Shown piece by piece: positions 7,210-24,828 of a stretch of DNA of 39,934 bases. Both the position numbers and the translations under genes were made by a program. This DNA is from Deltaproteobacteria bacterium (GTDB lineage Bacteria > Desulfobacterota > BSN033 > UBA1163), in contig JAGXTA010000062.1 of assembly GCA_018333535.1 (NCBI GenBank), positions 1-39,934 of the forward strand, read 5' to 3'. The notes below the pieces were generated by a model, which made no database searches, was not told where the DNA came from, and saw only the letters and a list, made by a program, of their open reading frames with translations. Position 1 is the stretch's first letter. Each line of letters opens with the position of its first letter.

Positions 7210-7956
7210 TTACTTACCATGAAGCATTACTATATCTTCATCAATGCCCTGCCGATAAATTTCTAGTCTTTCATTGAATCTTAATTCCTCGATATTGAGC
7301 GAACTAATTCTGACAGGGAAAAGCGAGGGAGTTTGGGTTAACATTTTTAGAGGTATAGATTTTAAACCGCTCGAAATTAATGCCCCCTCTATTAGCCATA
7401 TAGCAAGTCCTTTGTCCTTTATACCTCGATTAGGGGTGCCTTGGTAAATGCCCCTCCCCTCCCCTTTCTTTACCACCCCCCAATCGACAAAAGAAGAAAG
7501 GATACGTCTCGCAGCCCTTGCAACTGTTTCCCTTTCACCAAGCTGCTCCCGGATGCGTCTTTGAATTTGAGCCAATGTGAAAGACTCCTGCAATCTTATA
7601 AGCCGCCCGACTTGTTCTGCAACATTTGCAAAAAAGGGGTAAACAGCCATCGTCATTCCCCAGTGGACTGCCAGGTGGTCCTCCGAAGGCAGTTTTTTAA
7701 GAAATTCCAAACCTTCTTTGTGAAATGCCGCCAAAGATCCGGGAACGGATACCCATATTTTCAAAAGAATTGTGATCGCTTTTTCCCGAGCTCCTCTTTC
7801 AGGGCTGCTACCTATAGACAGCTTGTCCTCCAGGAAATCTTGAAGTTCTTTTTCGATCTCCTCTCTTGTGTTTCCAGCAAGGAAAAGCCTAGCTGTTTTC
7901 TCAAGCCAATCCAACTTAATTCTTTGACTAAAGCCAATCTGGGTTATTCCTGCCAT
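7210..7956 (-). CDS. brxA: BREX protein BrxA (DUF1819 family)
   Basis: A 248-residue BrxA-like protein, the usual last gene of a type 3 BREX operon. The sequence starts MAGITQIGFSQRIKLDWLEK and shows the alpha-helical, winged-helix-like character of the family (QRRIREQLGERETVARAARRI, then SFVDWGVVKKGEGRG). BrxA is thought to be a small DNA-binding component; its exact role is unresolved. The frame is open upstream to 8109, but the start is placed at the ATG at 7956. That start overlaps the end of pglZ by 13 bases, which fits translational coupling, and gives the usual BrxA length. No downstream hairpin terminator is evident. Confidence 0.82.
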   Translation of the reverse strand: MAGITQIGFSQRIKLDWLEKTARLFLAGNTREEIEKELQDFLEDKLSIGSSPERGAREKAITILLKIWVSVPGSLAAFHKEGLEFLKKLPSEDHLAVHWGMTMAVYPFFANVAEQVGRLIRLQESFTLAQIQRRIREQLGERETVARAARRILSSFVDWGVVKKGEGRGIYQGTPNRGIKDKGLAIWLIEGALISSGLKSIPLKMLTQTPSLFPVRISSLNIEELRFNERLEIYRQGIDEDIVMLHGK

Positions 7957-9959
7957 GAGGATTTCTTTTCCATTCGAATCAGCGGGACAATTAGCTCTTC
8001 GATTGAGATCCCGCCATGCGCAACGATCCTGGTCTCTTCTGCGATAAACGCCATACGATCTGGAGCAAGCAATGGCAAAAAATCGTCTGGTAATCCGATT
8101 GTGGGCCATTCTATTGCATTTAAGAAACGTTCTTTAATCTTTGATCTTAAAAGGCTGTCCGGATAAATGCGGACTCTCTCACCACGGAGGTCTGCAATTA
8201 CACCTTCGGAAGGCCGCCCATAGCCTACAGCTTCAATATTTCCATGGTCCGAGGTCAGAAAGATTTGAAAATTATGTTCCAAAAGGAGATTAAGAAGCTT
8301 GGCCATGCATCCTTCCATAGTCCATTGCTGGATTTGATTATGCATTCCTGCTGTCCCCAGTTCCATTCCATGCATAATCTTATCCACCTTATCAACAATA
8401 AGCCCAATGGCCCGGATTCTGGGATACGAAAGGATTTCTTTAACTTCCTCGATACCTTGGTCGCCGATTCCCTTAGCATAAGCCACTTCGTTTTGATTTA
8501 GCCCCTGGTCTGACCAAAACTGGGTCCAGAGCATGGGTTCTTTGTTGGTGCCATAGATGCTTGAAGGGAAAAAGAGAGGGGCCTTTCCAGCGAATACGGA
8601 CTGGCGAGATACCGAGGTGATTGTTGGTATCCAAGCAAAAACACCATCATCATGAAAACGAAGGTCTGGACACTGTGAACCTAATACTTCGCGCATCACA
8701 ACCCACTGGTCGAGTGCCAAACCATCGACCAGAAGGAGAGCAACCCTGGCTTTTTCTGATTGGCTCAATTCTCTTGCAAGAAAACGTGGAATATGGTGGA
8801 GCATTACTGGCGGCACTGCCGGTTGGTTGTGGAGACCAGCAAACCTATTTTGAACCCATGTCAGAAACGCTGAATCTAATTGCCCACGAAGTTCCTTAAC
8901 CCTTTCTAAAACCTGTAATGTTTGTTCGTCAGACCTATCAGCCAACAAAGCTGTGAGTTCCGCCCAACGATAAGCAAATAGCACCCAATCCTGGTACCTG
9001 GCTTCTGGTTCCGGTAGCGTACCCTCAACCGATTTTATGAGACCATCCAACCTCCGCAGACGATCCGCTTTCTCATCAATACGAATTCCAACCGCAACCC
9101 ATTTCCCAGTGAAGAGTCCAGATTTTTCATGTCGCACGGGATGCAACAGCCCTTCGAGGAACAGACTGTCGATGTAAATACGGATATCGTCATGATCAAA
9201 AGGTAAATCGGCAGGCCCTTCGAACGCTAAGCCGTAAGATTGCTTCTCCTCTTGGACCTTGCTTATGTCCATGCCAGTAATGCCGTCTAGAAATATTGGC
9301 CAACGCTCCTGCAAAAAACCAAGGAACGCTTGCTTGTCAGGGATAATCTGTTTAAGCGGCCAATCATCGAACAGACCTCCCTGGCGGAGAACGTACATAA
9401 ATCGCTCGTCTAAAATGCGGGGAATCCCTTGTCCCCTGTAATGGCGACGCAGCAGCACTCTCAGAAGGTCCGATGGTTGCTTGATAAGCTCTGGGGCGAT
9501 CTCGAATACGTGGCGAAGGACGAAATCTTTTGTCGCATTGTTACCGAGTTGTCCAGGATTTTGTGTATTTTGAGCTTGATAAAGAGACTCAAGGTCGCCT
9601 CGATTTAATGATGCAACCACTGGGTAGCTCAAATTGGGAAAGAGGTCACCCAAATTGAATGAGAGTTTTCGTCCCGTCTCCAGAAGATCATACGGTAACG
9701 AGTTTAGACTATTTGACGCAGACCTAAGTACGACAACAAGATCCGTATGTTTCCCATCGTCCCATCTTGACCGAAACCTGGATTCATAGGCGTACCTGAA
9801 GGAAACATGATCCTCAAACGGAATTAGCTCAAATCCTCTTTCTCGAATCGCTTGCAAAACACCCTCTTCCAGTAAAAGACCATCAGGATCAGCCACGAGC
9901 GTCAATCGTGTGATCTGTGGAGTAAACTCCCGAAGAATTTGGTCGCGCCAATCACCCAT
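7944..9959 (-). CDS. pglZ: BREX type 3 PglZ, alkaline-phosphatase-fold protein
   Basis: PglZ is the signature BREX component, a predicted metal-dependent phosphatase-fold protein needed for defence; its substrate is unknown. Counted from an upstream GTG at 9968, the PglZ core begins at LLLVDGLALDQW (411-422). It continues with PTITSVSRQSVFAG (448-461), which supplies the threonine/serine of the active-site region, then TSDHGNIEA (572-580), and ends with the family-typical VAHGGISIEELIVPLI (649-664). The N-terminal 400 residues are the BREX-3-type extension. I place the start at the ATG at 9959 because AGAGGTG lies six bases upstream. It overlaps the helicase stop by 8 bases. Protein length from this start is 671 residues, and it looks intact. 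Confidence 0.9.
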   Translation of the reverse strand: MGDWRDQILREFTPQITRLTLVADPDGLLLEEGVLQAIRERGFELIPFEDHVSFRYAYESRFRSRWDDGKHTDLVVVLRSASNSLNSLPYDLLETGRKLSFNLGDLFPNLSYPVVASLNRGDLESLYQAQNTQNPGQLGNNATKDFVLRHVFEIAPELIKQPSDLLRVLLRRHYRGQGIPRILDERFMYVLRQGGLFDDWPLKQIIPDKQAFLGFLQERWPIFLDGITGMDISKVQEEKQSYGLAFEGPADLPFDHDDIRIYIDSLFLEGLLHPVRHEKSGLFTGKWVAVGIRIDEKADRLRRLDGLIKSVEGTLPEPEARYQDWVLFAYRWAELTALLADRSDEQTLQVLERVKELRGQLDSAFLTWVQNRFAGLHNQPAVPPVMLHHIPRFLARELSQSEKARVALLLVDGLALDQWVVMREVLGSQCPDLRFHDDGVFAWIPTITSVSRQSVFAGKAPLFFPSSIYGTNKEPMLWTQFWSDQGLNQNEVAYAKGIGDQGIEEVKEILSYPRIRAIGLIVDKVDKIMHGMELGTAGMHNQIQQWTMEGCMAKLLNLLLEHNFQIFLTSDHGNIEAVGYGRPSEGVIADLRGERVRIYPDSLLRSKIKERFLNAIEWPTIGLPDDFLPLLAPDRMAFIAEETRIVAHGGISIEELIVPLIRMEKKSSWQE

Positions 9960-12855
9960 TGGATACACCTCTCTGTACCCGAACCAAAATAAGGGGCAGC
10001 ATTTCTGGACTCACCTTAGCCTTTCTTTCGAGGTGTTCATGCCATGACTTCTCCTCTTGAGCAAGCTGGCCAAGCCTATAATTTCGTACTGCCGGCAACC
10101 CAATTCGCCCAATGGCACGTCGGCGTGCCGTGAACGCATGCTCCCCCTTTTCCTGCTCAGCAATTAGGTGTTGGCGGTGTTTTTCAACAAGCTCTTCATA
10201 AACAGGTTTTCCATGTATTTCTGCGGCTTCCATGACTCGCTCAAAAATGAGCCGAGCTTCCTCGTTTTCAATGTAAGCACCTATCCTAACAGAGTCTGAT
10301 AAGAGCCCATCCCAGATACGCCTTGCAGTCGGCAGCAAGACTCTTCCGTCGTCATGCAGAAACAGCGGCATAATGCGTTTCTGATCCCAATCGGCAGAGT
10401 AGATCGATATTCTCCACAAGGACCAGATCCCACGCACATCCGAAGGAAGATCTGAAAGACCAATGATCGGTATCGGTTGGTCGGGAACAACACGGGTGAT
10501 CTCCATGGCCAACCCCCGAATCCGAGGGTCTTCCAGGGTGAGGTGCTGCGCAGTAGGCATCTGTTCAGCATCCCTACTACTAAATACAGCATCATAAATC
10601 TTTGTGCCATCCGGCCAATTGAGTTCCCACCTAGTACCATGCCGCTCGGCGGAACCACCGTGGGCTCTGAGATAGTTGACGGTCATGCACTCAACCCAAT
10701 ACGGGAGTGGGTGTGCCATTAACCTCTGGGCTTCATTGGGGTCCAGGTTCTCTGTTTCTCCGAGCACCGATCCACTCTCGCGTACTCCCTTCGCCATGGA
10801 TTTAATACGTGTCGCTACATTCTCCACGGATGTCTCTATAGTCTCTGGATGGAGAATAGCTTCCACATAGAGATCGTCGAACATTTGGCCCGTCTGGGCC
10901 GAATCGAGTACGTCACCAGTTTTGTCGATACCAAATTCTTCGAGGATGACGGCCAATTTCTCCTCAAGGACCTCACGCACTCGACGCTCCACTGAATCTT
11001 CGAAAACAAAGTTTACAGCGCGCACAACGTGCTTTTGGCCTATACGATCCACCCGCCCAATACGTTGCTCCAACCGCATTGGGTTCCAGGGTATATCGTA
11101 GTTTATAACCGCATGGCAGAATTGAAGGTTTAGACCCTCTCCTCCTGCATCTGTAGAGATCAGCATGCGCGCATCTTTCGCAAAGGTGTCTTGGGCACGT
11201 TTCCGTTCATCCATATCCATGGAACCGTTCAGACACACCACTGAGAACCCACGGTCTGTAAGAAAATGATAAAGCATCTCCTGAGTAGGAATGAACTCTG
11301 TAAAAATCAAGACCTTCAGATCCGGATCTCCTTCTTCCTGCTGGAGTCGGTATACCCAGTCAAGAAGGGCCTCTGCTTTAGCATCGGGCCCGATCTGATC
11401 GCATCTTTTCGCAGCCTCAAGAAGCGCCTTGACTTCTTTTCGTTCATTTTTGATTGCCTTTAAACGGGTTTTCAGTAGGGTTTCAATTTGCTCCTGTCCA
11501 TCCAGGTCAGCCCATTCTTCTTCTGAATACATCGGAAAGAGCGTCAGTTGTTCTTCCGGCGTCTCCAGCGCCTCAAGCCGACGCTCCAAACTCATCCGGA
11601 TAGCTCGGGTGCTTGACACTACCAATCGCTGCATAAGAATCATCAGGAAACCAATATAACTCCGCTTTTCGAGCATAGCCTGGTTGTAACCTTCTCGGAC
11701 ATACTCAGTGACCGCGTGATAAAGAAGGCTCTGTTCCCTGTGCCTGCCTGCCGGAGCGCCGGCGCAGGCAGGGCGGTCTTCCCACGAAACGGGTACCAGT
11801 TGTGTACGCCGTGGTTTGAATAAGGGTTTCCCCTCCGCATCGATGGCCCGGCGCTTCTCCGTTCGGATGACGTGGCGGCTTACTCGATCTTTCGTAACGC
11901 TTTCAATATCAGGAAATTCTTCGGGATCGATCAAGGAAACCAACCGCTGGAAAGCATCGGTTTTCCCTTGGTGTGGGGTTGCAGAGAGCAAAAGCAGATA
12001 TGGCGCTGCTTCAGATAGCCCTTGACCTAGCCTGTACCTTGCAACCTGGTCTGTGCTACCGGCAAGCCGGTGAGCCTCATCTACAATTACCAGATCCCAG
12101 CCAGCAGAAATCAAATCTTCGAAACGCTCCCGGTTATATTCCGCAACATCTTCGGGTGTCCAGCCCCGCCGTTTATCCAGGGGTTTGAAAGAGTCCATAG
12201 GAACAATAATTTGCGAAAATACTCGCCATGGGTTAGACGGTAGTCCCGGAAAATCTGATGGGGGTTGGTTCAATTCTTTGACTGCTCCAAATTTTGAACC
12301 GTGAACCTGTGAACCTTTAAGTGTAATTCGTCTAAGGGTTTCGAGGTCGTCGGGCAGTACGAGTTGGAATTCCTCATTGAAATGGAGCTGCATCTCAGCC
12401 ACCCACTGGGTGACAAGGCCTTTTGGAGCAATCACAAGCGTTCTGGTTGCCAGGCCGCGAAGCTTTAATTCGCGCATAATGAGACCGGCCTCAATCGTCT
12501 TGCCGAGCCCTACCTCATCCGCCAGCAGATAGCGCACCCGGTTGTCCAATATTGCCCGGGAGAGCGCTTTGATTTGGTGCGGTAAAGGAATAACGGACGC
12601 TTCGATGGGCGCAAGCAGCACATCATGGGTTAAGGTATCCGCAATGCGGGCTGCAGCTGTTATATAGGCAATAGCATCACTTGTCCCTATATTTGCTTCG
12701 CTTAGGGGCTTAAGACTGTCGGAACGAACTCGAACGATAGCATCCTGACCCGGAAGCCAGACGCGATAGGTCGTCTCGCCCCAGAGTATCTGGGTTTCGA
12801 TGACCTGACAGAGTTGATTGTGGTCTACACTGAAATGCCAACTTCCTTCGCTCAC
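9952..12855 (-). CDS. brxHII: BREX type 3 helicase BrxHII (SNF2/DEAD-like)
   Basis: A 967-residue SF2 helicase/translocase. Motif I is DEVGLGKT (113-120), motif II VDEAH (258-262), motif III LLLLSATPHQGK (287-298). The C-terminal RecA domain carries TDAGGEGLNLQ, then IPWNPMRLEQRIGRVDRIGQ, as in RapA/SNF2-type proteins. In BREX-3 this is the BrxHII position and architecture; it presumably moves on DNA during phage restriction. The start is a GTG at 12855, 14 bases after the preceding stop, with AAGAGAG upstream. Residues about 361-373 (PACAGAPAGRHRE) are encoded by a GC-rich palindromic repeat that also occurs inside brxC, so this segment is probably an in-frame insertion into a loop. The gene is otherwise complete. 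Confidence 0.9.
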   Translation of the reverse strand: MSEGSWHFSVDHNQLCQVIETQILWGETTYRVWLPGQDAIVRVRSDSLKPLSEANIGTSDAIAYITAAARIADTLTHDVLLAPIEASVIPLPHQIKALSRAILDNRVRYLLADEVGLGKTIEAGLIMRELKLRGLATRTLVIAPKGLVTQWVAEMQLHFNEEFQLVLPDDLETLRRITLKGSQVHGSKFGAVKELNQPPSDFPGLPSNPWRVFSQIIVPMDSFKPLDKRRGWTPEDVAEYNRERFEDLISAGWDLVIVDEAHRLAGSTDQVARYRLGQGLSEAAPYLLLLSATPHQGKTDAFQRLVSLIDPEEFPDIESVTKDRVSRHVIRTEKRRAIDAEGKPLFKPRRTQLVPVSWEDRPACAGAPAGRHREQSLLYHAVTEYVREGYNQAMLEKRSYIGFLMILMQRLVVSSTRAIRMSLERRLEALETPEEQLTLFPMYSEEEWADLDGQEQIETLLKTRLKAIKNERKEVKALLEAAKRCDQIGPDAKAEALLDWVYRLQQEEGDPDLKVLIFTEFIPTQEMLYHFLTDRGFSVVCLNGSMDMDERKRAQDTFAKDARMLISTDAGGEGLNLQFCHAVINYDIPWNPMRLEQRIGRVDRIGQKHVVRAVNFVFEDSVERRVREVLEEKLAVILEEFGIDKTGDVLDSAQTGQMFDDLYVEAILHPETIETSVENVATRIKSMAKGVRESGSVLGETENLDPNEAQRLMAHPLPYWVECMTVNYLRAHGGSAERHGTRWELNWPDGTKIYDAVFSSRDAEQMPTAQHLTLEDPRIRGLAMEITRVVPDQPIPIIGLSDLPSDVRGIWSLWRISIYSADWDQKRIMPLFLHDDGRVLLPTARRIWDGLLSDSVRIGAYIENEEARLIFERVMEAAEIHGKPVYEELVEKHRQHLIAEQEKGEHAFTARRRAIGRIGLPAVRNYRLGQLAQEEKSWHEHLERKAKVSPEMLPLILVRVQRGVSNG
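11743..11772. repeat. REP-like palindrome inserted in brxH coding sequence
   Basis: Arms CCTGCCTGC and GCAGGCAGG (perfect, 9 bp) flank a GC-rich 12-base centre. The outer sequence matches the palindrome inside brxC at 22156-22194, including the flanking G and GC. The reading frame passes through without a stop. Confidence 0.8.
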
Positions 12856-12869
12856 CGTTATTCACTCTC

Positions 12870-14063
12870 TTACCAAAGACGCTCCAATATAAAGCCTCTG
12901 GCATCTTGAAGTGCAGTCAATGCAGCACGGTTCACATCAATTATGTTCTGAAAATCGCGGTCTTGGCCGCGAACGCCTCTTCGGTGAAGTTCATTTATAA
13001 GTGCCTCGGCATTATCAAGCAGTCGGGAGTGCCATTCTGCTGTTTCTCTGAAGGATGTCCGAGAAACTTCACGACACTGCCGGTACAGACATTGCAGATA
13101 GTGTCGGTGGGCTTGCTGCTCTGAGTAAGCCGTAGATGTGGGTTGGGCTCCAGAAAAAAGGATCCCGGCATAATCTGATTCCATAGCAGCATCTGCCCTG
13201 AGGTGGTTAAGAATCCCTGCCCTGAATGCCATATCTAAAAATGGAATCTTATATTCTGACAGAGCTTGTGGACAGTAATACCATTTCACTCGTCGGCTGA
13301 TTTCATCCTCTTCTGTTTCCTGAAATTTGCTCGTGGAAAAGGACCTAACGTTCAACCATATGCCTGACGCGATGGCGTCTACTTTAGAAGCCGCAAGACA
13401 AAGCATCTGATGGCTGCTATAACCAACTATTACGGACTTACCTTGCAGCTTCAGGCCGGAACAGAGTACTAAAAGATTTGCCAGCCACATCGGATCGTCT
13501 ACCAAATACTGGGCCCCAGGATGTTCTGGCACCACATATAGCCCATCTACATCCCATATTTCTGCTGAGTTAATCACCATCTCTATTTGGTCTTCAAAGC
13601 GCATGGCCTCTCCGGAAAGACAAACGGTGGCAATACGTGGTCTATCCGCAACTACTGTAGCCGCCTCAGTAATAACGCTATCTTGAACTGCTAACCAGTC
13701 ATCGTCGACACGTTCACCATAAATGCCAGGGATTATGAACCGGTCAGCTTGCGCTGCATTATTTAAGGCCAGAAGGCGCTGTAACAAGTGAGCGAGTTTA
13801 GGGCCTCCGCTCAGCATACTTGTGTCAAAGTCATCGGGCCAATAATCATGTCTAATAAGACGGGGATGAGTAGCGCGGGGATCATAAAATTGAGGATCCA
13901 CCAAGATCCTTCCACCCATGCTCGCAACCTGTGAGCCAAAACGTTGTATCTGTTCCGTTGTTAAATCGCGTGGGCTCATTATTACAGTGCCAACACCCCA
14001 AGAATCAACGAGGTGCCGGCAATGCTCCATCATGCCATATCCGAACTGTAAATAAAGTTCCAT
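12870..14063 (-). CDS. Unknown alpha/beta protein embedded in BREX operon (possible TIM barrel)
   Basis: I do not recognise this 397-residue protein. Regularly spaced hydrophobic strands with polar ends suggest a (beta/alpha) barrel: GTVIMSPRD (25-33), GRILVDPQFYDP (51-62), RFIIPGIYGE (108-117), RIATVCLSGE (143-152), DGLYVVPEHPG (173-183), SVIVGYSSHQ (210-219) and DAIASGIWLNVRSF (229-242). Conserved-looking polar residues sit at strand ends, as in an enzyme active site. The C-terminus (about 300-397) is alpha-helical with several arginines. A distant tRNA-guanine-transglycosylase-like barrel is one possibility, but no zinc-binding CxCxxC motif is visible. It starts 3 bases after the kinase stop, with AGGAG inside the kinase end, and is 14 bases from brxH. 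It therefore belongs to the operon and most likely acts with the kinase and nuclease-like neighbours. The fold is an inference. Confidence 0.6.
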   Translation of the reverse strand: MELYLQFGYGMMEHCRHLVDSWGVGTVIMSPRDLTTEQIQRFGSQVASMGGRILVDPQFYDPRATHPRLIRHDYWPDDFDTSMLSGGPKLAHLLQRLLALNNAAQADRFIIPGIYGERVDDDWLAVQDSVITEAATVVADRPRIATVCLSGEAMRFEDQIEMVINSAEIWDVDGLYVVPEHPGAQYLVDDPMWLANLLVLCSGLKLQGKSVIVGYSSHQMLCLAASKVDAIASGIWLNVRSFSTSKFQETEEDEISRRVKWYYCPQALSEYKIPFLDMAFRAGILNHLRADAAMESDYAGILFSGAQPTSTAYSEQQAHRHYLQCLYRQCREVSRTSFRETAEWHSRLLDNAEALINELHRRGVRGQDRDFQNIIDVNRAALTALQDARGFILERLW

Positions 14064-14066
14064 AAC

Positions 14067-14927
14067 TTAATCTCCTGTGCTGCTATTTATTGCGCCACGT
14101 GTTGAGTCAAACCATTGTCGCGCATGAAGTGCAGATGGTGGTCGTCGGGAAGGGTACTTTGACATCAGTAGAGCAATGAAATTAACTAATTGGTTCTCTA
14201 TGTCGCCTTCTATTTTCAACGTATCAGGAATCATGGTTTCCGTGCGTCGCAGGGTATCAAGATGGTCTCTGGAACCTTCAGAAAACGGATGTCTTCCAGC
14301 AAGTGCTTCATATGCCACAACCCCTATTGCGAATAAGTCAGTTCTGATGTCGATTTCCTTCTTCAAGTTCCTAAACTGCTCAGGTGCTGCGTAGCCAGCA
14401 GTATGTGGTCCGAAATGAGCACCGGTTGGCGTTAGTGATGATTTTGCAAGATGTCTTGCAATCCCGAAATCGAGAAGCTTGAATGAGCCGTCAGGACAAA
14501 CCATGATATTTTCTGGTTTTATATCCCTATGCACAAGTTTTTCTTTTTCAAGTGCAACTGCTGTATTTAAGAGTGTATCTATAAGTGCCAATACTTGCTT
14601 GGTTGGCAATCGTCCTTTGGCTTTCATTTCGTCACGCAGATTTACACCCTCTATATACTCCTCAATGATAAAAAGAATGCTGTGCCCATCATGATCGAAC
14701 TTACCCCACTCATAAAGATGGGCTGTGTTAGGTATGTCACTGGATATAGCAATATCTATTTCCCGCTGTATTCTTTCGTTAGGTTCTAAAATCACCTTAA
14801 TAACCACTTCACCGTAGTCGTCATGGGAGGCGCGGAATACTATCTTCTGACCGCCCTGTGCAAGAGGCTTCAAGTCTCGAATACTTTTTATGTTCCTTTG
14901 TATTGTGTCTAGATCAAGCGGTTTCAT
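14067..14927 (-). CDS. Serine/threonine protein kinase (Hanks type) within BREX operon
   Basis: A 286-residue soluble eukaryotic-like kinase made almost entirely of the catalytic domain. The glycine-rich loop is LAQGGQKIVF (22-31), the ATP-anchoring lysine is K44 in VVIKVI, the catalytic loop is HRDIKPEN (133-140), the metal-binding motif DFG is at 153-155 and APE at 181-183. All key residues are present, so it should be active. There is no membrane segment or sensor domain. It lies 19 bases after the nuclease-like gene, with GGAG before the ATG, and 3 bases before the next gene. A kinase is normal in type 2 BREX (PglW) but not part of the six-gene type 3 core. It may modify BREX proteins or trigger the neighbouring nuclease-like protein; that is inference. 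Confidence 0.9.
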   Translation of the reverse strand: MKPLDLDTIQRNIKSIRDLKPLAQGGQKIVFRASHDDYGEVVIKVILEPNERIQREIDIAISSDIPNTAHLYEWGKFDHDGHSILFIIEEYIEGVNLRDEMKAKGRLPTKQVLALIDTLLNTAVALEKEKLVHRDIKPENIMVCPDGSFKLLDFGIARHLAKSSLTPTGAHFGPHTAGYAAPEQFRNLKKEIDIRTDLFAIGVVAYEALAGRHPFSEGSRDHLDTLRRTETMIPDTLKIEGDIENQLVNFIALLMSKYPSRRPPSALHARQWFDSTRGAINSSTGD

Positions 14928-14946
14928 TTATGTACTCCAGTTATCC

Positions 14947-15663
14947 TTATTGATGAAGATAGCGGCCTATCCATTCATTAAACATCCAGGAACCATAAGA
15001 AGATGGGATATTGCACTTCCGGGCTCCCAGATATCGTCTTACATGTGCCCCATTCAATAAAAATACCCCTACCCCGGTTTTTCGTGAGCGATCAATAATT
15101 GATTGGCTGGGCCTTTCAACTGGAGATAGCACATAAGATTCTGAAGCAAACCACTGGTCAAGCTGTCCTTGCTGAAACGCATCAGTCCAGTTTTTGATTT
15201 TCGCTTCAACTGCGATAATAGAACGCAGACCGAATATGTGATTTAAGGCTTCTGTTTTCCACATAGTCTTCGAACGAGTGATTAGTCCAGCGTCCAATAG
15301 CCGCTCTATTGAAGAAAGGAGAGGTTTTGCGGCAATACCAAGAGTCGCTATTAAGGCTGATGCATCTGCTCCTCGAACATTTGAAAGGTAATGTAAGATC
15401 TTCATGTCTATAAGTTTTAAAGAACTGCGGGCAGCCACCCATTGGTCGAACACCTTGGGTAAGTACTGAACTATGACAAGGTCAGGAAAACCGGACTCCA
15501 TCCGAGGTTCATGGAAAATTGCTACTGCACCTTTTTGCCAACGGAAACTCTGCGGTATATATTTAACAAAAGAATCAACAAGCTCTTTCTCTGTCCCCGT
15601 AACGCCATTGCGTGTAAGCAATCCGATTCGTTCATTTCCCCCAGTGAACTCGATCACTTTCAT
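14947..15663 (-). CDS. PD-(D/E)XK nuclease-like protein with inserted winged helix
   Basis: A 238-residue protein not assigned to a named family. It has the split signature of a PD-(D/E)XK nuclease: GFPDLVIV (58-65), supplying the PD aspartate, and IIAVEAKIKNW (149-159), supplying E153 and K155. These are followed by a helix with QLDQWFASESYVLS, typical of the last core strand in restriction-type folds. Between the two halves, residues about 85-135 read as a winged helix-turn-helix (IDMKILHYLSNVRGADASAL...IERLLDAGLITRS). A nuclease domain carrying an internal DNA-binding insertion is implied. The start ATG overlaps the pglX stop by one base (TAATG), so the two are translationally coupled. It could be a methylation-sensitive effector linked to PglX; that is inference. 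Confidence 0.65.
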   Translation of the reverse strand: MKVIEFTGGNERIGLLTRNGVTGTEKELVDSFVKYIPQSFRWQKGAVAIFHEPRMESGFPDLVIVQYLPKVFDQWVAARSSLKLIDMKILHYLSNVRGADASALIATLGIAAKPLLSSIERLLDAGLITRSKTMWKTEALNHIFGLRSIIAVEAKIKNWTDAFQQGQLDQWFASESYVLSPVERPSQSIIDRSRKTGVGVFLLNGAHVRRYLGARKCNIPSSYGSWMFNEWIGRYLHQ

Positions 15664-18509
15664 TATTCCTTCCCTGTTCTCGTCAACGCCTGGTCATACC
15701 ACATTAAAAGTTTTGGGTCTTCCTGTAAAACATTTTCCGGGATTTTTTGGGCAACTTCAATGATTGTCTTATAATCTCTCTCCTGCCAGGCTTTCTTGAA
15801 GCCGGCACGTACTGCCTCTAAGCGGAAAACCTTAAGCTGTCTCTGCTTGGATTCTTGGTACTCATTGAACTCCTTTAACAGGGCCCGTTCCCGGAGTTTC
15901 TCCAAATCACCTGCCTTGTTAGGGTCTGGTACACACCAGCGATCCTTAGCCTTGGCTTGCAGGACCGGGTCGTCTTTCGATAGATTTCGCAGTTCCTTGA
16001 AGTTTGTTGAAAGATAGCTGTGAATCTGGCTCGGCACGTCCCCATCCCCATCGTAACGCAGGAAGTTCTGTGCCAAGAGTTCATCCATTTCCAGCAATTT
16101 TTCGTTTTTTTGCCACCCTCCGATTTCCTGCATGAATTGTGGTTTCAGTTCTCCACCCGTTTGAGGTTTTTTGGTCAACTGCTGCCTGAGCCATTGGATT
16201 GCGCTGGACTCATCAGTCACAAAAAGTTCAAGCTGGAGCATCTCCTTTACAGTCATGCGTTTTCTGTCGTATTCGGCCACTTGGTCGGAAAGAAAATACA
16301 TGCCTTCCCGTTGGGGAAAGCGTTGGACAAGTCCTTGATAAAACTCCGCAGCGGAAAGCGGAACGGTAACTCCCCGTTGAACGTGAAAGGCAACCATACG
16401 GTCAAACAAAAGATAATTTTGCCGTTCGGCAATAACCTCGGCCTGCCCATCCCTGGAAACGAACACTGGGAGTTGTCGCAAGTGAGTGCGAATAAAATCC
16501 CAAGCGCCTTCCTCTGTGCCAGCGGTAAGCTTAAAACGTTCCTCCAAACCTCCATTGGGCTTGTAAGCGGAGATGATGAGGTCTTGCTTGACGGAATTGG
16601 CCATGAAAGCCGCTTTGACTCCACCATGCTTCTTATCAAGGGTACGAACATCGGCAACTACAAAACCTGCGTTTTCAAACGCTTCTTGAATCGCTGTCCA
16701 AACGCTGTTAAGAGAATTATGAAATTCTACAGTCATCCACCTGCCAGGCTTGAGACAGGCAAAATAGTTTTCAAAGCACTGAATCATCAGTGTCTTATAA
16801 TCACCGAGTGTTTTGTGTTGCGACTTATTCTGAATCGCTTCAGGTCTTTTATTTGTTAGAACCCTGAGCCATGCTTCCCACAAAAAACTGAGCTCAGAAT
16901 ACATTAAGTTCCCACCAAAAGGAGGGTCAACAAAAATGTAATCTACTAAACAGTTGGAGATCGCTTTTTGCGTTGACGACCTTGTGTCAACTAAATTGCT
17001 ATATTGAATAAATTTTGATAATCCTTCAAATCCCCTTTTGAGAAACTCGCTTCTGTAAGAGAATAACTCAAAAGGATTTTGTTCAACCCCAATTGATGGA
17101 ATAAACAATGTACCGGTTAATGGTCCATTGATTCTACCCCTTGGATTGTGTTTGTTAATTATGAAGGCGTTTCCTTTGTGTAAGTTTCTATTCAAACAGC
17201 TTGTGGCAACAAGTCGGACCGATGGAAATTTGACTGCCTTTGCCCAAAAGGAACTGAGAATCATCAAATTTCTAGGAGTATAGAAATGGTGTGCATTCGT
17301 GATTCCGACATTAAATGGATCTGGGGTTTTGTCCCCCTCGATCATGCGGTCTGTGGGAAACCAGTAGGGAATGTCGGACTGCTCGATCTTTTCGGTCAGG
17401 CCCAGATCGAGGGCGCCGGGTGTTTTCTCATATCGTTTCTTCCCCACGCTGTAGTTAATGAGCACAGGAACCTGCTTGGATTGGTGAGTGGTCTGGTTGA
17501 TGGCTTTGTCGAACTTGGTCACCCAGGCACGCTCCATGCGGCGCTTGGTGAGTAGGACACGGCAATGTGGGCAGGGGAATTCGTCCTTAACTTTGCCCGC
17601 CTTTTTGTCCACTGCCGCCTCCCAGAAAACCACCTCCCGCGTGCATTCTGGGCAAACGAATACATCAGACCAGACGGTGTAATTGATCCGGGCTTTGCTC
17701 TTCCCGTCGGTACGGGTGGTCTCATACATCCACCCGCATTCGTCTTCGACTTCCTTAAGAACGCGTTTGGCTTCACGCTCGAAAGCTTTAACGTCTACCG
17801 GAGTATTGTAGTTGTAACCGATAAATGTTGCTGCTGGGGAGAGGTCATTTAGAATTGCCCGCCGACCGCCTATCTTCGAAAATGCCCTTCCATTCTCATC
17901 CAGGATGGTACCATCCGACCGAACCTTATATCCAAGCGATTCGACCTCTTTTTTGCTATCGCATAATTGCGCAGCCACCCCAGTCATTCCCGTCCCACCG
18001 AAGCCGTCGAACACAACATCCCCCGGTTCGGTGTAATGCAGGATGTACCGCATGATAGCCTTGTGCGGTACCTTGGTGTGGTAGGAGTGGGCGTTGTAGA
18101 TCGGGTCGTTTTTGCCCTCGCTCACATCCGCGGCAAACGGCTCCCGCCGGTATTTATCCGTTTTGGAATCGTAGGGCTTCCCGTAGCACCGGATGAAATC
18201 CTCGATGAATGGGTTTGGACAGGCGGTATAATAAGGAGGGTCAGAAAGCGCAAGGATGTCCTCATCGGAGCCAATCGGAAAGCCTTCGATCTTGCGAAAC
18301 TCTGAGTCCTTCAGTTTTTCTTTGAGCTTTTCCAAAAAATAAGCCCGGCGGGCCTCATCATTCTCGAAGGTCATTCCGAGGCATTCTACTTGCTTCTTTG
18401 CTTTGGTCTCCAGTTCCTCCTGATAGGATTTCTCAAATAGATCGGGCTGACCGGAGGGGTCGCGGAATAATTCTTTTGTTTTCTTACCTGTGCGTTGTTT
18501 TTGTGCCAT
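15663..18509 (-). CDS. pglXI: BREX type 3 adenine-specific DNA methyltransferase PglX
   Basis: A 948-residue methyltransferase of the BREX-3 PglXI type. The order of motifs is SDPPY (89-93) before the AdoMet-binding FDGFGGTGMTG (167-177), the arrangement of beta-class N6-adenine or N4-cytosine enzymes. A zinc ribbon CPEC...CPHC (286-289, 313-316) follows, then a second catalytic-like VDPPFGGN (527-534). The C-terminal 300 residues are alpha-helical and probably recognise the target. In BREX this enzyme marks host DNA by adenine methylation to distinguish it from phage. A 331-base gap separates it from the AlbA_2-type gene upstream, unlike the tight spacing elsewhere in the operon. Only a weak ribosome site precedes the ATG. 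The gene is complete. Confidence 0.9.
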   Translation of the reverse strand: MAQKQRTGKKTKELFRDPSGQPDLFEKSYQEELETKAKKQVECLGMTFENDEARRAYFLEKLKEKLKDSEFRKIEGFPIGSDEDILALSDPPYYTACPNPFIEDFIRCYGKPYDSKTDKYRREPFAADVSEGKNDPIYNAHSYHTKVPHKAIMRYILHYTEPGDVVFDGFGGTGMTGVAAQLCDSKKEVESLGYKVRSDGTILDENGRAFSKIGGRRAILNDLSPAATFIGYNYNTPVDVKAFEREAKRVLKEVEDECGWMYETTRTDGKSKARINYTVWSDVFVCPECTREVVFWEAAVDKKAGKVKDEFPCPHCRVLLTKRRMERAWVTKFDKAINQTTHQSKQVPVLINYSVGKKRYEKTPGALDLGLTEKIEQSDIPYWFPTDRMIEGDKTPDPFNVGITNAHHFYTPRNLMILSSFWAKAVKFPSVRLVATSCLNRNLHKGNAFIINKHNPRGRINGPLTGTLFIPSIGVEQNPFELFSYRSEFLKRGFEGLSKFIQYSNLVDTRSSTQKAISNCLVDYIFVDPPFGGNLMYSELSFLWEAWLRVLTNKRPEAIQNKSQHKTLGDYKTLMIQCFENYFACLKPGRWMTVEFHNSLNSVWTAIQEAFENAGFVVADVRTLDKKHGGVKAAFMANSVKQDLIISAYKPNGGLEERFKLTAGTEEGAWDFIRTHLRQLPVFVSRDGQAEVIAERQNYLLFDRMVAFHVQRGVTVPLSAAEFYQGLVQRFPQREGMYFLSDQVAEYDRKRMTVKEMLQLELFVTDESSAIQWLRQQLTKKPQTGGELKPQFMQEIGGWQKNEKLLEMDELLAQNFLRYDGDGDVPSQIHSYLSTNFKELRNLSKDDPVLQAKAKDRWCVPDPNKAGDLEKLRERALLKEFNEYQESKQRQLKVFRLEAVRAGFKKAWQERDYKTIIEVAQKIPENVLQEDPKLLMWYDQALTRTGKE

Positions 18510-18840: not shown

Positions 18841-20568
18841 TCACATTTTTTTGGGTTTTTTGGGGATGACATAGCGTGCGTTCCTGCCTCGCCCTGGTTT
18901 CTGAATGTTCGGGTTTTCAGCCATGAGTTCCTTCATTAAGCGAATTACTTGGAAACGGTCCATTCTGGCTATTTGACGTATTTCGGCATTACTTAATCCG
19001 ACCTCTCCGTGTCTGGACCTTTCCATCAACACGCTCAACACCCGTGTCTTGGCCGCCTCCCAGTCGATGCGGCGGTCCCGCTCCGGGTGACCAGGCACGG
19101 AGAGTTTCCGATGGAGGTCATGACGCAGGGTCCAATAAGTTCCACGGCCGGTTCCCCCACGCTCAATGTCCCCGAATTCCGTTTCCATCAGGCTCAGAGT
19201 TTCCCGGGCATCGGACTCGGTCTGTTGCGTAATCCGGGCAGCGGTTGCTGTGTCGATCTCGGGGTGCCGCAGAAGGTGCTGAACGATAAGCAGGTGTTCG
19301 ACGGATAGGATGCGTCCCCGGTTCGATTCGTCCGCAACGAACATTCTGAACGGAACGGAAAGTTCGGAGGCCCTGAAGATCACCCGAACTGCTTCTCCCT
19401 CGTCAAGGATTGACGGTGGTTCCTTGCCCTCGATGAGCAAGGCCTGGTACATGCGGCGCACGCCGAGGTTGCTGCGGTTGACCAGGCGCAGGCGGGTAAG
19501 GGCATCTACCAGCGTGGGATTTCGCGGGACAGGTTCGTGCCGGAGGATGTTTTCGGGAGTAATGCCACCGGGGAGACCGCCTGGATTGCTGATCTCGAGC
19601 CGATCCTTGAACTGCTTGAGCAGGATCGGGCCATGGATCCGGTAGTCAGCATGGACCAAAGCGTTGAGCACTGCCTCGCGCAGGGCTATTTCCGGATAAG
19701 TACGGATCTCGAAGTGAAACAGGCCTTGCGGGACCGTGGCAATGGGGTTGTCGGCCATAATCCGATCGATGATTCGTTCCATTGCGAGGGGGATGGCGTC
19801 CTGGCCATCGGCGCGGTCAGAGTAGTCGGTATCCGTAGCCATACGCAGGTGCGTCCAGGCATAACCCTGGAAATGTTCGCGGATAGCTTCCGTGGTTCCA
19901 GCCAGAAGCAAGCCGGCCCGCAGAAAACGACCTTTGCGAATGAGTCCGATCGCTCCAAGAAGGTTACGGTCTGACTCTCGAAGCAGGTCATCTGGCGCCC
20001 TTTCCCGTGCAGCTGACTGGCGCAGGCGCTCCATGGCGGAGGCAGAGATCAGGGATTCGAGACGTCCCGAGATCTCGGTGGCTGTGAAGTCCGTCTCTCC
20101 CGTTTCCACCATGATCCGGCGACGAAGCGTACCGGTCAGAGGTTGACAGTCTTTACCAATGTGGACCTTACCTCTTCCGGCAGTGTCGGTATAGGGAGGG
20201 ATGCCTGGGTATATCTGCATAACCAGAACCCGACCCGTTCCTTCAGGCACGAGCAGTCCCTCAAAAACAGGCGTTAACTTAGGGTCGGTTGAATCGTATA
20301 CTGCCTTTTTCAGACGATTCACATCCACTTCAGGTGGCACGCCAAGTATGGCCCGGGCCCGGCCTGTGGCTTTCTCATTTATCCCGAAGACCACCGTTCC
20401 GCCCCCGCCATTTGCCATACAAATCGCCATCTCGACGACCAGGGCCACGGAATCCTTCATGCTGCGCGGAATCCACTCTTTGAAGTCAAGATCCTGGTCT
20501 TCGAGGGCATTGGCTGGCTGCTGTTCAAGCTCCTCCAGAAGAGATCGAATTTCCGAAACGCTTCGCAC
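18841..20568 (-). CDS. AlbA_2 (Schlafen-like) ATP-binding protein within BREX operon
   Basis: A 575-residue protein of the 'ATP-binding protein, AlbA_2 domain' type, resembling RecG-like putative transcriptional regulators. The N-terminal AlbA_2 domain has DLDFKEW (25-31) and AICMANGGGGTVVFGINE (48-65). A GHKL-like C-terminal part has the helix EIALREAVLNALVHADYR (about 292-309) and the ISNPGGLPGGI ATP-lid segment. The end carries a helix-turn-helix-like region (NAEIRQIARMDRFQVIRLMKE). It starts at a GTG two bases after the brxC stop, so it is co-translated with it. Its base composition is visibly more GC-rich than its neighbours, which suggests later insertion into the operon. It is not one of the six core BREX-3 genes; a regulatory role is plausible, unproven. 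Confidence 0.8.
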   Translation of the reverse strand: MRSVSEIRSLLEELEQQPANALEDQDLDFKEWIPRSMKDSVALVVEMAICMANGGGGTVVFGINEKATGRARAILGVPPEVDVNRLKKAVYDSTDPKLTPVFEGLLVPEGTGRVLVMQIYPGIPPYTDTAGRGKVHIGKDCQPLTGTLRRRIMVETGETDFTATEISGRLESLISASAMERLRQSAARERAPDDLLRESDRNLLGAIGLIRKGRFLRAGLLLAGTTEAIREHFQGYAWTHLRMATDTDYSDRADGQDAIPLAMERIIDRIMADNPIATVPQGLFHFEIRTYPEIALREAVLNALVHADYRIHGPILLKQFKDRLEISNPGGLPGGITPENILRHEPVPRNPTLVDALTRLRLVNRSNLGVRRMYQALLIEGKEPPSILDEGEAVRVIFRASELSVPFRMFVADESNRGRILSVEHLLIVQHLLRHPEIDTATAARITQQTESDARETLSLMETEFGDIERGGTGRGTYWTLRHDLHRKLSVPGHPERDRRIDWEAAKTRVLSVLMERSRHGEVGLSNAEIRQIARMDRFQVIRLMKELMAENPNIQKPGRGRNARYVIPKKPKKM

Positions 20569-20570
20569 AA

Positions 20571-23500
20571 TTACTCCAGAACAAGACGGACCTTATTTGG
20601 TTCTTTGCCTTTTATGAGCTCATCAATATAATCTTCGAATCGTTTTTTCATTTCCGCAGGTGTTGCTGGAGCCCCGCCGGAGAGTAAAGCCTGACGAAGA
20701 TCTTCAGTCTTAACATTGACTTTCACCAACCCTGACAGGACCTCCTTCAAAGCTTGAATAAAATCCTGAGTGAGCTTTTCTGGCAAACTGCGCTTCTTGA
20801 GAAAAGCGTCAACCTGTTTTCGAGGTGTCGGTTTGAGCAGGGGCAAATTCTCCCTGGTTGTTGGATCTTCGAGGTTTGTCAGTAGAGTCTGTGTCCAAGC
20901 AGAGAGGAGGTTTTCGAGTTCACCATCTAACCCTTTGAGAATAGCTCCAACTGGGGCCGCGAAAGGTTCAACACTCGGTTTGAAGGAACAATGGGGACAT
21001 ACGGGCGATACCTCCACTTCTTGCTGGGTGAGAGCAAAACAACTTTTGAGGTTCGCCAAACGGTTCTGAAAGTCGGTCAATTGCTGGCGTGGCATTAGGT
21101 CGATTGTTGATAGTTTCTGGATTGTGCTAAGGCGTTCATCACGCATCAGGGAGCTTTTGCGCTTATCCTCGTTGACTCCTAACCTTGCTTTGGTATGGGA
21201 CGTCATGTAGCTCTGGATATAAGACTTCTTCAGATCATTGAGCTTGTGGAGTATTTGCTGTCGAAATGCCGGGGTCGTCCGCTTTTTGGGGTCTGAAATT
21301 TCGGCAAGTGCATCAGTTTGGACTTTCTTCATAAGGACCACCCACTCATGGTCTGTTGGCAAAACAGCCTCCGCGGTAGATAGATAGGACGCAGTCGTAC
21401 CCAGGTCATATACCAATTCCTGCAATGACTCGACTTCGGCAAGCGTCTGCACTCCAGCTCGTTGGCTGTTTACCTCCTGAGTATCGTAACGGAAGTTCTT
21501 TAACTTCCCTGGAGTAGAATAGGCTTGGAGTGATTCGAGGAATGCCTTGGTATCCTCCAAACGTGACCGAATTGTTTTGGCTTCATCTTCTCCCAAAAGG
21601 CTTCGGCCCCAAAAAGTAAGTCCGCTCTGCATCTGCTGGAGTGCTAACACCAAACCCTCCACGTTTTTGACAACAGCACTCTGCATTGCTTGTAGCGGCT
21701 CGTCTTTGCCCTGGGTTACAAGTTGAGCCCAACCTGGAGGCAAGCCCAGAAGTTCGAAGACTGCTTTGAGTGCGGGGATATTCCATTCCTTTGGTCGTTC
21801 GATATGTTTGAATTGAATTAGCTCATCAATAGCGGTGCCGGCAAGAGCTGATAGGTTGCCGGCGTCTAACTTTTTGCCCGGGACAGAAAGAACCAGATCG
21901 CCTGAGTAAACCAGAGACGCCAATAGGACGACTGCCCATTCGGGCTCAAGCCGCAAACTCTGCGAAGACATATACTCAACCCCTAGTGTGTCTTGAATCA
22001 GTTCAGAGCGGTTGACAACCTGTCCATGACCCTTCTTTTTGAGAATTCCCAATATATGACTGGTATACTTGGAACGATACGGATCGAGTTTATCGCCATC
22101 GAGCAGTTCCAGTGCATCAAGGACCGCCGTTGCTTGTTTGGTGCGGTTCTGTCCGCCTGCCTGCCGCGCCGCTCCGCTTTGCGGCGCAGGCAGGGCTATG
22201 GCACGAAGGGCATCCTGCGCTGCCTGACCACGGTTGGCGTCAGTTATTAGCACAGAGAAAACAGGATATTCAGGGGCCTGGTCCTGAAAATGGCTTGTAA
22301 GACAAACAGAACCTGTAATGTTGACGATGTCACGGACATTGGCCCTTCCACCCCCGCCTGATGGGATCTTGCCCTTGACCCATTCAATGAGTTTCTTAGT
22401 TTTACCCTGGTAGACTACCTCAAAAGCCACTACAATATTTTCCTGTAGCCATTTGACTAGGTCGCGCAAGAATCCAGACGCTTTAGACTCATAGGTAGAC
22501 TTAGCGTGGCCAGACGAAGTTGACGCCAGGTCAATGGCCGCGGCATAGCTACGCAGCGCTGCACGAAAAACATCATCTCTCCCAGTCAGTCGAAAGAATA
22601 CCTCATCTGCCTTCTTCTCATCTTTGAAGGGCGGGGGGTCATTGGGCTGGATAAAATAGAGATAAAAGTCTCTGGGTGGAACGGCGGTTGAGCGCTCGTT
22701 TGGAGACCCAAAGAAGAGATAACCTCTGCGAGACGCCTTATGCTCGATCCATTCCAGCTCGTGCTGCCAAATCTTGTAACCAGTTACATAGGTCTGATCA
22801 GAACATTCCATTGCCCGTTTAAGGGCTTCAAAGTAGTACCGGTCAAGTTGAGAGTCACTAAGGCTTTCTGTTCGTTTTTCAATGAGCGCATCATAGTCAT
22901 CTATTTTCTTAAGATCTATGTAGTATTGGCGGTTCTCCGGGTTGGAGGAGATGAACTGGCCACTGACGGTTTTATGTATTTCACGTAGAACCGTCTCGAC
23001 TTGGGAAAGCAGATCATCAGCCGGAACACCACCGAGATCCTCAATGCCGGGCTGGTAAAGACAAAGACCGTCCCGGAGCTCTTCCGGGGTAGCTCCAAGT
23101 GAGGCATAGATATCCCCCATCGTTAGACGATGGATTGATAAACCGTAAATGATCCGAAGGGCCATGGGTTTATACGCGGGCCTCGTAAAAGCCTGCTGAA
23201 TGCGCGATTCAAGGACCTGGCTGCAGTCAATTACAGCCCTTATGTCTGGAACAGTGCGAAAAGAAGGATTCTCCTTCAACGTTGTCCAGTAGCTATCATA
23301 TCCAATAAGACCGGGATAATCTTTGGGAACATCTTTATCGAGCAACCGCTTCATCGCTTGAGATAGCGTCTTAAGCACCTCACGCTTTTCAACTGCAGTA
23401 ATGCGCTCAAAGGTATCGATATAGTCTGGATGAACAGGGAAAAGCCGGACAAACTCTTCCATCTGCTCATTCATATGACCGTAGAATTTAGCAAACGGGA

Positions 23501-24317
23501 TTAAATACTCTCGTATCCGTGTTTGTTGCTCCCCAGTTTTCTTAAGTAAGCGCTCTGATACGACAAATTTGACATCTTTGCGGGCGATAAGGATTTGCTC
23601 GAAGCGATCCTTGACCCGCCGTATGCTGTCAGCGACGAAAGAAAACCTGGCACTATCAAAGATGGCTTCTTGCACACCAGCCATAAACCGGAATTTAAGA
23701 TCCTTACACACTTCTCCAATCTCGCGCAGGAAATTCAGGTCGAGAATCAATTCTTGATCATTGCGAGTGCGGAGGAAGTCGAGCAATTCATCTACAACAA
23801 GAAGCAATCCGTGGTCAGGATATTTTTGATGAAACAAGGCCATCATATTCTCAAATGATGGCTTATTGCTGGGAACCTTGTCAGGGAATTTGAAATTCAC
23901 TCCCAGGATATTTAGGTGTTCCTCAAGCTCGGCTACGATGATGTCCCTCAGTGACATCGTGGTAGCGCCAATCTCTGTACGAATCACCTTGAACTTTCCC
24001 GCAATTCGGGAAACTGCTTTGGAAACCTCTTTGCTTGTGAGGGAACCGACAAGATCGCTGTGCTCCGCAATAGCTGAAATTAAAGACATGAGGTGAGATT
24101 TTCCAGTGCCGTAATTACCCACAATAAGAAGACCCTTATTGTCAGCAGGTTCATCGAATTGGAGATTGGGTACAGCAATTTTTATGAGCCGTTCTGCCAT
24201 CTCGTCTGAAATAACGTAGGTTGCTACAAGCTGCCGAGCGGTTGCAGATTTATCGGCGTCCCGCAACTGAACAACTGTCTCAATTGGATCAAATTGGATC
24301 AAGTCACCATATTTCAT
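20571..24317 (-). CDS. brxC: BREX P-loop protein BrxC
   Basis: A 1248-residue BrxC, the large AAA-type ATPase of BREX systems (PglY equivalent). Walker A is GNYGTGKS at 67-74 and Walker B is LLLVVDE at 171-177; the first residues [20 protein letters not shown] are typical of BREX-3 BrxC. A CPHC-containing stretch near the C-terminus may bind zinc together with an upstream cysteine. BrxC is required for defence and probably forms a complex with PglZ. The segment around residues 706-722 ([14 protein letters not shown]) is encoded by a GC-rich palindrome shared with brxH and is likely an inserted loop. The gene starts 31 bases after brxF. It is complete. Confidence 0.92.
22156..22194. repeat. 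REP-like palindrome inserted in brxC coding sequence
   Basis: Arms CCTGCCTGC and GCAGGCAGG with GC-rich centre containing GCCG and CGGC. The outer parts match 11743-11772 in brxH. It is read here in a different frame (LPAPQSG rather than PACAGAP) and keeps the frame open. Confidence 0.8.
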
Positions 24318-24348: not shown

Positions 24349-24828
24349 TCACGACTTTTTCTCTAAAGTTACTGCCAAAAGGTCATGAGCCGGATAACGG
24401 CGATATTCAGGGTGATTGGGTGCAGCATAGGTCAGATACCCTCCCGCAATTGTTCCGTTCCAGGTCGCCACCACCGTACGATTGCGTGAAATTTGTTGAA
24501 GAAGCCGAAGTGGATCCTGCTTCAACGAAACCTCGAAGAGAATTTCAAGATTATCTATGAGCACCACGTGGTCACCAGTCTGCCCGATTATTTCATCGAT
24601 CAAAAGGGGTAGCCTTAGAATTCGCTGCCGTTCAGTCAACTCGAGAAGGGATCTACTGAGTTCCAGATTCAAATTTATGTATCTGAACCCGGTTTGTTTC
24701 GATACCTCCTGCAAAAGAGAGGTCTTTCCTGATCCAGACTGACCAACGACCAAAACCAATCGATGGTAAAGCTCGTGAGTTTGACCAATTTTTTCTATAA
24801 GTTGCTCAGATAAGGTAGCAATTTCCAT
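24349..24828 (-). CDS. brxF: BREX-3 P-loop protein BrxF
   Basis: A 159-residue small P-loop ATPase, the first gene of type 3 BREX operons and specific to that type. Walker A is GQSGSGKT at 29-36. A Walker B-like strand [11 protein letters not shown] lies near residues 90-100, followed by [15 protein letters not shown], typical of the family. It is thought to assist BrxC or PglX; the mechanism is not established. The ATG at 24828 follows a leader of roughly 245 bases from the predicted promoter. The length fits the family. It is the marker that makes the type 3 assignment firm. Confidence 0.88.

Follow-up and report, generated by a model that had tools for sequence, protein, structure and literature searches.

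A recurrent gene trio for a predicted nuclease, a Ser/Thr kinase and a TGT-fold protein in the pglX-brxH interval of a type 3 BREX operon

The window analysed here is the whole stretch of 39,934 nucleotides of contig JAGXTA010000062.1 (assembly GCA_018333535.1, Deltaproteobacteria bacterium). It carries a type 3 bacteriophage exclusion (BREX) operon with three additional genes, which encode a predicted nuclease, a Ser/Thr protein kinase and a protein with the fold of tRNA-guanine transglycosylases (TGTs; below, the third protein). These open reading frames (ORFs), together referred to as the trio, lie on the minus strand between pglX and brxH and exactly span positions 12870-15663. All six type 3 BREX genes (brxF, brxC, pglX, brxH, pglZ and brxA) are present in the operon and the trio is not among them. 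pglX and the nuclease gene have one base in common (TAATG), followed by gaps of 19 bp (nuclease to kinase), 3 bp (kinase to third gene) and 14 bp (third gene to brxH). An earlier sequence-only reading of this DNA had described three genes outside the six-gene core that form one apparent translational unit with BREX; coordinates, junctions and flanks all agree with that description. The GC content of the trio genes (0.43-0.48) is similar to that of the window (0.47).

The trio is not confined to this operon. A search with the third protein alone, covering genome contigs, plasmids, viral contigs and three phylum samples (with matches in 3/297, 7/297 and 8/246 genomes), yielded 30 loci including the window, the near-duplicates L006/L007 and L012/L014 being counted separately. 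All three genes are found together in 26 of them, distributed over several phyla and one haloarchaeal plasmid. Given that only the third protein was used to find the loci, this grouping exceeds chance; the possibility that the three genes never co-occur elsewhere can be dismissed. The order nuclease-kinase-third on one strand is kept in 21 of the 26 complete trios, the kinase and third genes converge with the nuclease gene in four (L020, L114, L115 and L119), and one (L116) has the order kinase, third, nuclease. Divergent branches thus keep the set together despite a varied gene order, and since third proteins there are only 21-31% identical across the part that aligns, the linkage is old.

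The nuclease model obtained with AlphaFold2 (AF2; predicted local distance difference test score (pLDDT) 86.9, predicted template modelling score (pTM) 0.84) contains a winged helix (approximately residues 80-139) that separates the PD motif (P60-D61) from the ExK motif (E153-K155). In VIA-align these residues match winged helices with a Z of about 10-11, and the rest of the protein matches 3dnx (Z 10.1 over 128 residues) and the type IIS enzyme PaqCI (Z 9.5 over 131). Sequence searches returned winged-helix matches below threshold only. Residues E25, D61, E153, K155 and Q165 are kept in 24/24 rows, divergent rows included; the first four form a pattern which we take to be the PD-(D/E)XK catalytic motif. 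We therefore predict, from model and conserved residues, that the 238-residue protein belongs to the PD-(D/E)XK-type nucleases and carries the winged helix as an insertion. The kinase matches Pkinase (PF00069) with 112.5 bits against a cut-off of 31.7 (E 3e-32), and K44, H133, R134, D135, K137, N140, D153 and G155 (HRDxKxxN and DxG) are kept in 25/25 rows. It is a Hanks-type Ser/Thr kinase with its catalytic set intact and is apparently active; both proteins had been read in this way before, and the present data agree with both assignments. These counts cover 24 nuclease and 25 kinase rows, with the nucleases of L005, L007 and L014 left out. At L005:1865-2621 the nuclease gene is split across two overlapping ORFs, through a frameshift or a sequencing error.

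For the third protein (AF2 model with pLDDT 86.4 and pTM 0.89), all 50 of the 50 rows listed when Foldseek matches were re-examined with VIA-align are TGTs (Z 18.6-20.7). The best structural match is 1iq8_A, with Z 20.7, a root-mean-square deviation of 3.5, 306 aligned residues and 11% identity. Pfam, NCBIfam and PADLOC gave no match to the window protein; a search of PDB sequences returned five antibody fragments only (E 0.5-1.5), and tblastn against the phage collection gave no match. We conclude that the modelled protein has a TGT fold, an assignment made on the fold and without sequence similarity to TGTs. The sequence-only reading had called it an unrecognised alpha/beta protein, which stands as far as sequence families are concerned but not for the structure model, in which a TGT-fold barrel is recognisable.

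Ten residues of the third protein are kept in 25/25 rows: Q6, G8, S30, P31, D56, Q58, L69, P112, G234 and F242. D56 (motif DPQFY, after strand 3) is the sole invariant aspartate, the next best being D33 in 21/25. Judged from strand order it lies at the position of the TGT motif DSGG, and we infer that it is the equivalent of TGT D102; the spacing would place the second TGT aspartate near G234. PDB titles name D102 and D280 as mutated TGT residues, and we take these two to be the catalytic aspartates of TGTs. Cysteines occupy at most 11/25 rows of any column and the zinc site CxCxxC is not conserved, whereas all 20 of 20 canonical TGT genes of the window's phylum, chosen by DSGG, also carry FDCV and CxCxxC. 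Because neither the second aspartate nor the zinc cysteines are conserved, canonical TGT chemistry is unlikely, and the third protein was rejected as a canonical transglycosylase. The earlier suggestion that it produces or alters some small molecule or nucleic acid consequently receives a mixed answer: the fold is in line with it, the missing conservation is not.

Complete trios occur inside BREX-3 operons at 2/26 loci (the window and L112/L129), both times at the pglX-brxH junction. The second operon has the order brxF-brxC-pglX-trio-brxH-pglZ-brxA with one extra ORF before pglX. Its genome, sampled from the phylum of the Planctomycetota metagenome-assembled genome that holds L003 and having no handle in common with the sample of the window's phylum, probably belongs to another phylum than the window. 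Identities between L112 and the window are 65% for the third protein, 52% for the kinase and 45% for the nuclease, against 62% for pglX, 61% for brxH, 56% for pglZ and 49% for brxA. The closest partner of the window in the third-protein tree is L002, followed by L112, with supports of 96/94 and 96/98; a long-branch warning applies to L010, L020 and L113, and the deep part of the tree is unsure. The 10-kb flanks of L002 contain no match to the window's BREX-3 genes. From the tree and this context, one or more moves of the trio into or out of BREX seem to have taken place in the group of window, L002 and L112.

A further trio is found beside a different BREX: in L119 (L119:2-9706) the genes for PglX, PglZ and BrxL are followed 33 bp later by the kinase and TGT-fold genes, with the nuclease gene converging. 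For the remaining 23 complete trios, the flanks that were fetched hold no match to the BREX-3 genes of the window, apart from Schlafen-type/g26774 matches, which were not counted as BREX. 'Without BREX-3' accordingly means no blastp match (E 1e-4, 1e-3 or 1e-2, depending on the search) in flanks that are in part short. A null result of PF08665 (PglZ) in 14/15 trio genomes or records was discarded, as this model also missed the PglZ of G309 (L119), which PADLOC detects with 858 bits, and so is no evidence that BREX is lacking there. The three genes thus travel together with and mostly without BREX-3 genes nearby, a check that the sequence-only reading had proposed.

The position of the trio can be compared with the same interval in other BREX-3 operons. 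Of 23 places with BrxF above cut-off, 20 were taken (the window's own, G184 and G268 being left out); 11 of these 20 and 3/4 plasmid operons gave a measurable pglX-brxH interval. This interval is at least 300 bp in 10 of the 14 operons. Intervals of that size are also frequent between brxC and pglX (15/19, at least 8 of them with a Schlafen-type gene), and are found in 2/15 cases for brxH-pglZ, 1/24 for brxF-brxC (a split brxC) and 0/13 for pglZ-brxA. With the window and L129 added, the pglX-brxH interval is filled in 12/16 operons and empty in 4/16 (L083 and plasmids L042-L044). The trio fills it twice (window and L129) and was absent from all 14 other intervals in a profile search of those loci. 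IetAS is present three times, in L069 (L069:7583-11246), L070 and L079, the latter two assigned by 93-94% and 64-67% identity to L069. L076 holds Gabija (GajA and GajB, E below 1e-270; L076:9574-13166), and HEC-02A, a PDC-M23B/HamB-like helicase, PDC-M34A and AbiU/AIPR occupy one slot each. Inserts without family assignment (L066:8558-9907 and L081:10306-14773) are candidates for further defence systems: at the thresholds applied, neither Pfam nor PADLOC matched the L066 protein, and the L081 inserts were left out of the annotation scan, as was the second insert of L068. The second insert of L073 had no match. Given that the junction elsewhere holds complete Gabija and IetAS systems, the trio occupies a site of whole defence systems; this suggests that the pglX-brxH junction is a cargo berth, and makes the second defence layer that had been proposed for these genes plausible.

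Outside BREX, where selected neighbour genes were annotated, several trios adjoin other defence genes. L114 (L114:7592-15765) has an HsdR-HsdM-HsdS type I restriction operon in which hsdS overlaps the kinase gene by 4 bp. HsdR and PDC-S02 adjoin the trio in L113, and a helicase-nuclease does so in L020; an N6-methylase lies upstream in L110, a type IIG/DrmMI-like methylase 1.4 kb upstream in L010 and a C5-methylase about 1 kb upstream in L011. L006 has an Mrr-like protein (sub-threshold) and a phage integrase nearby. In the viral contigs L012 and L014, the trio is located shortly downstream of an ORF of 1359-1361 amino acids that by eye resembles a tape-measure protein; these copies are possibly prophage-borne defence cargo.

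Several known systems share parts of this composition. BREX type 2 PglW likewise brings a PD-(D/E)XK-clan nuclease (NERD) and Ser/Thr kinase into a BREX setting, according to the accessible part of PMC12839542. PglW unites NERD and a tandem kinase in one protein, whereas the trio consists of separate short proteins with one kinase and an unrelated TGT-fold partner, and its host is BREX-3, not BREX-2; of the trio, NCBIfam PglW matches the kinase only, at 60 of 990 bits. TGT-fold proteins in defence loci are described for Dpd (DpdA, a TGT paralogue) and for a BREX-related capture system with a TGT (PMC12839542 and PMC6884629, both in part). Unlike these, the third protein has no TGT sequence match, does not conserve the second aspartate or the zinc cysteines, and is accompanied by a Ser/Thr kinase and a nuclease; for the window's brxH, the match to DpdE models is far weaker than that to BrxH. 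The best PADLOC matches of the kinase, PD-T4-6 and mad6 (of MADS), reflect family resemblance only; against NCBIfam MAD6 the kinase reaches 92.7 bits, far below the cut-off of 460. Auxiliary effectors of OLD/TOPRIM, HNH, Schlafen and other types are likewise nested inside BREX operons, and the accessible part of PMC12839542 does not name a nuclease-kinase-TGT-fold set among them. No PADLOC model matches the nuclease or the third protein either, and within this scope an already named BREX-3 accessory set was not found. The passages of PMC13092281 covered mention neither a transglycosylase nor BREX, and no description of the trio was found in the titles and abstract starts listed by searches of the open PMC literature. 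The three-gene module is real, recurrent and apparently undescribed, and most likely it is an autonomous defence system docked in BREX-3.

Taken together, the three genes are one conserved module inside and outside BREX in which the catalytic residues of nuclease and kinase are kept at the sequence level. We consider it rather probable that the trio is an autonomous three-component defence system, composed of sensor, switch and effector and carried as cargo in methylation-based defence operons; its antiviral role we infer from genomic context. The third protein would be the sensor, as it combines a TGT fold and one invariant candidate active-site aspartate with the lack of a second aspartate for covalent chemistry. 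It might bind a base, nucleoside or RNA/DNA structure that is altered during infection; binding would release or engage the Ser/Thr kinase, and phosphorylation would in turn activate or free the winged-helix nuclease, which might cut DNA of the phage, or of the host as a last resort. Through its position behind a methylase gene, the trio would be co-produced with a restriction-type system and act when this first layer fails. A more specific version, quite unlikely as it stands, makes the trio a fail-safe for methylation-based restriction, in which the TGT-fold protein has lost base-exchange chemistry, reads deazaguanine-type or otherwise altered guanine and signals to the nuclease by phosphorylation. 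The guanine may come from phage DNA that restriction enzymes fail to cut, or from tRNA disturbed by infection. Deazaguanine bases shield phage DNA from restriction (PMC6884629, in part), which would link a TGT-fold reader directly to the restriction genes beside it. In this fail-safe version the trio would be an immune relay of three steps, from base reader via kinase to nuclease, and would dock as a swappable cartridge into BREX and restriction operons of both Bacteria and Archaea. If the cargo reading is true, the trio is an undescribed defence system; the pglX-brxH junction would moreover allow whole defence systems to be sought by position alone.

A number of observations weigh against this reading. 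The TGT assignment is one of fold: in the Foldseek ranking against the PDB, pyruvate kinase comes first and a TGT second, and the top viral row is an uncharacterised protein, with a putative queuine tRNA-ribosyltransferase second. PF01702 matched 0/11 proteins scanned (the window's at E 1 and 10 divergent ones at E 5, two of them doubtful members), and hhalign, local and global, gave a probability of only 0.3-0.4 per cent for the third protein against the TGT profile. Core matches of the nuclease are moderate (Z about 10) and Foldseek found none at E 0.001, so that the argument for PD-(D/E)XK rests on the conserved residues. One or more trio genes are lacking in 4/30 loci: in L118 the kinase would fall beyond the contig start, in L108 the nuclease was not found and a contig end is nearby, and L109 and L111 are weak third-protein matches with neither partner gene present. 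Among the complete trios, the nuclease of L005 is the split one, and that of L010 escaped blastp and was identified from its position and motifs. The role in defence is read from chosen neighbours, for which there is no background rate, and the direction of signalling from sensor via kinase to nuclease is a guess.

These points leave room for other explanations. The trio could be a toxin-antitoxin or abortive unit, in which the nuclease (or the kinase) is a toxin restrained by a TGT-like protein that monitors a host tRNA or base and lets the toxin go once infection disturbs what it monitors. A mean column identity of 66% for the third protein (12 rows) against 49% for the nuclease (10 rows) would be expected if the former reads a conserved host molecule, and the set is compact and recurrent; with no direct sign of toxicity we regard this as unlikely, and it overlaps the sensor-switch-effector reading, from which it differs only in the thing sensed and cut. 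Alternatively, the third protein could be a working DNA transglycosylase like DpdA that marks host DNA with deazaguanine, with the nuclease cutting unmarked DNA and the kinase controlling the balance. The TGT fold, the invariant D56 and the winged-helix nuclease fit such a modification-restriction scheme, and DpdA itself, a paralogue of TGT, works within a restriction system (PMC6884629, in part). The aspartate and cysteine counts given above, compared with the canonical TGTs, argue against it, as does the fact that neither the nuclease nor the third protein matches any PADLOC model, those for Dpd among them; we consider it decidedly improbable.

About equally improbable is a BREX-3 accessory that feeds into BREX, in which the kinase adjusts PglX, PglZ or BrxH instead of the nuclease of the trio. 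In its favour are the close linkage with pglX and brxH seen in two distant genomes and the comparable divergence of trio and BREX genes, but 24/26 complete trios stand outside BREX-3 operons. Furthermore, BrxF is above cut-off in 20/297 genomes of the window's phylum, and the window's own is the only one of these among the 3/297 with the third protein (the two 297-genome samples have handles in common and look the same). The trio might finally have nothing to do with defence and be an operon for metabolism or regulation whose insertion near mobile DNA is due to chance. No adjoining defence gene was identified for 17/26 complete trios, with neighbours partly annotated and the Mrr-like protein of L006 not counted. 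Nonetheless, the slot shared with Gabija and IetAS, the repeated restriction-operon neighbours and the presence in viral contigs and a plasmid render this very improbable.

The features of the window operon are listed in Table 1; on the minus strand the gene order is brxF, brxC, Schlafen-type gene, pglX, trio, brxH, pglZ, brxA.

Table 1. Coordinates of the trio and of the host BREX-3 operon in the window
Feature	Coordinates	Strand	Basis
brxA	7210..8109	-	PADLOC
pglZ (BREX-3)	7944..9968	-	PADLOC, NCBIfam
brxH, BREX-3 SNF2-like helicase, downstream border of slot	9952..12855	-	PADLOC
TGT-fold (tRNA-guanine transglycosylase-like) TIM-barrel protein (third protein), 397 aa	12870..14063	-	AF2 model, VIA-align
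Hanks-type Ser/Thr protein kinase, 286 aa	14067..14927	-	PF00069, catalytic residues
Predicted PD-(D/E)XK nuclease, 238 aa	14947..15663	-	ORF, AF2 model, conserved residues
pglX, BREX-3 methyltransferase, upstream border of slot	15663..18509	-	PADLOC
Schlafen AlbA_2 / HATPase_c_4 protein, second cargo position, brxC-pglX	18841..20568	-	Domain match
brxC (DUF6079 type)	20571..24317	-	PADLOC, domain match
brxF	24349..24828	-	PADLOC, NCBIfam

PADLOC scores are 1510 bits for PglXI, 1522 for BrxH, 2007 for BrxC and 1002 for PglZ, with BrxF and BrxA matched too, and NCBIfam BREX_3_BrxF and BREX_PglZ_3 are above cut-off. A scan of 12500-18900 found 11 promoter-like sequences against 8.5 expected from shuffles, and 12 terminator-like ones against 6.0.

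The Schlafen-type gene, which follows brxC at a distance of 2 bp and precedes pglX by 331 bp, marks a second cargo position of the window operon; Schlafen proteins are reported as BREX-linked in at least 1017 taxa (PMC12839542, in part). In the other BREX-3 operon that carries the trio, an ORF of 128 amino acids located between brxC and pglX (L129:12058-12444) by eye resembles a PIN-type toxin.

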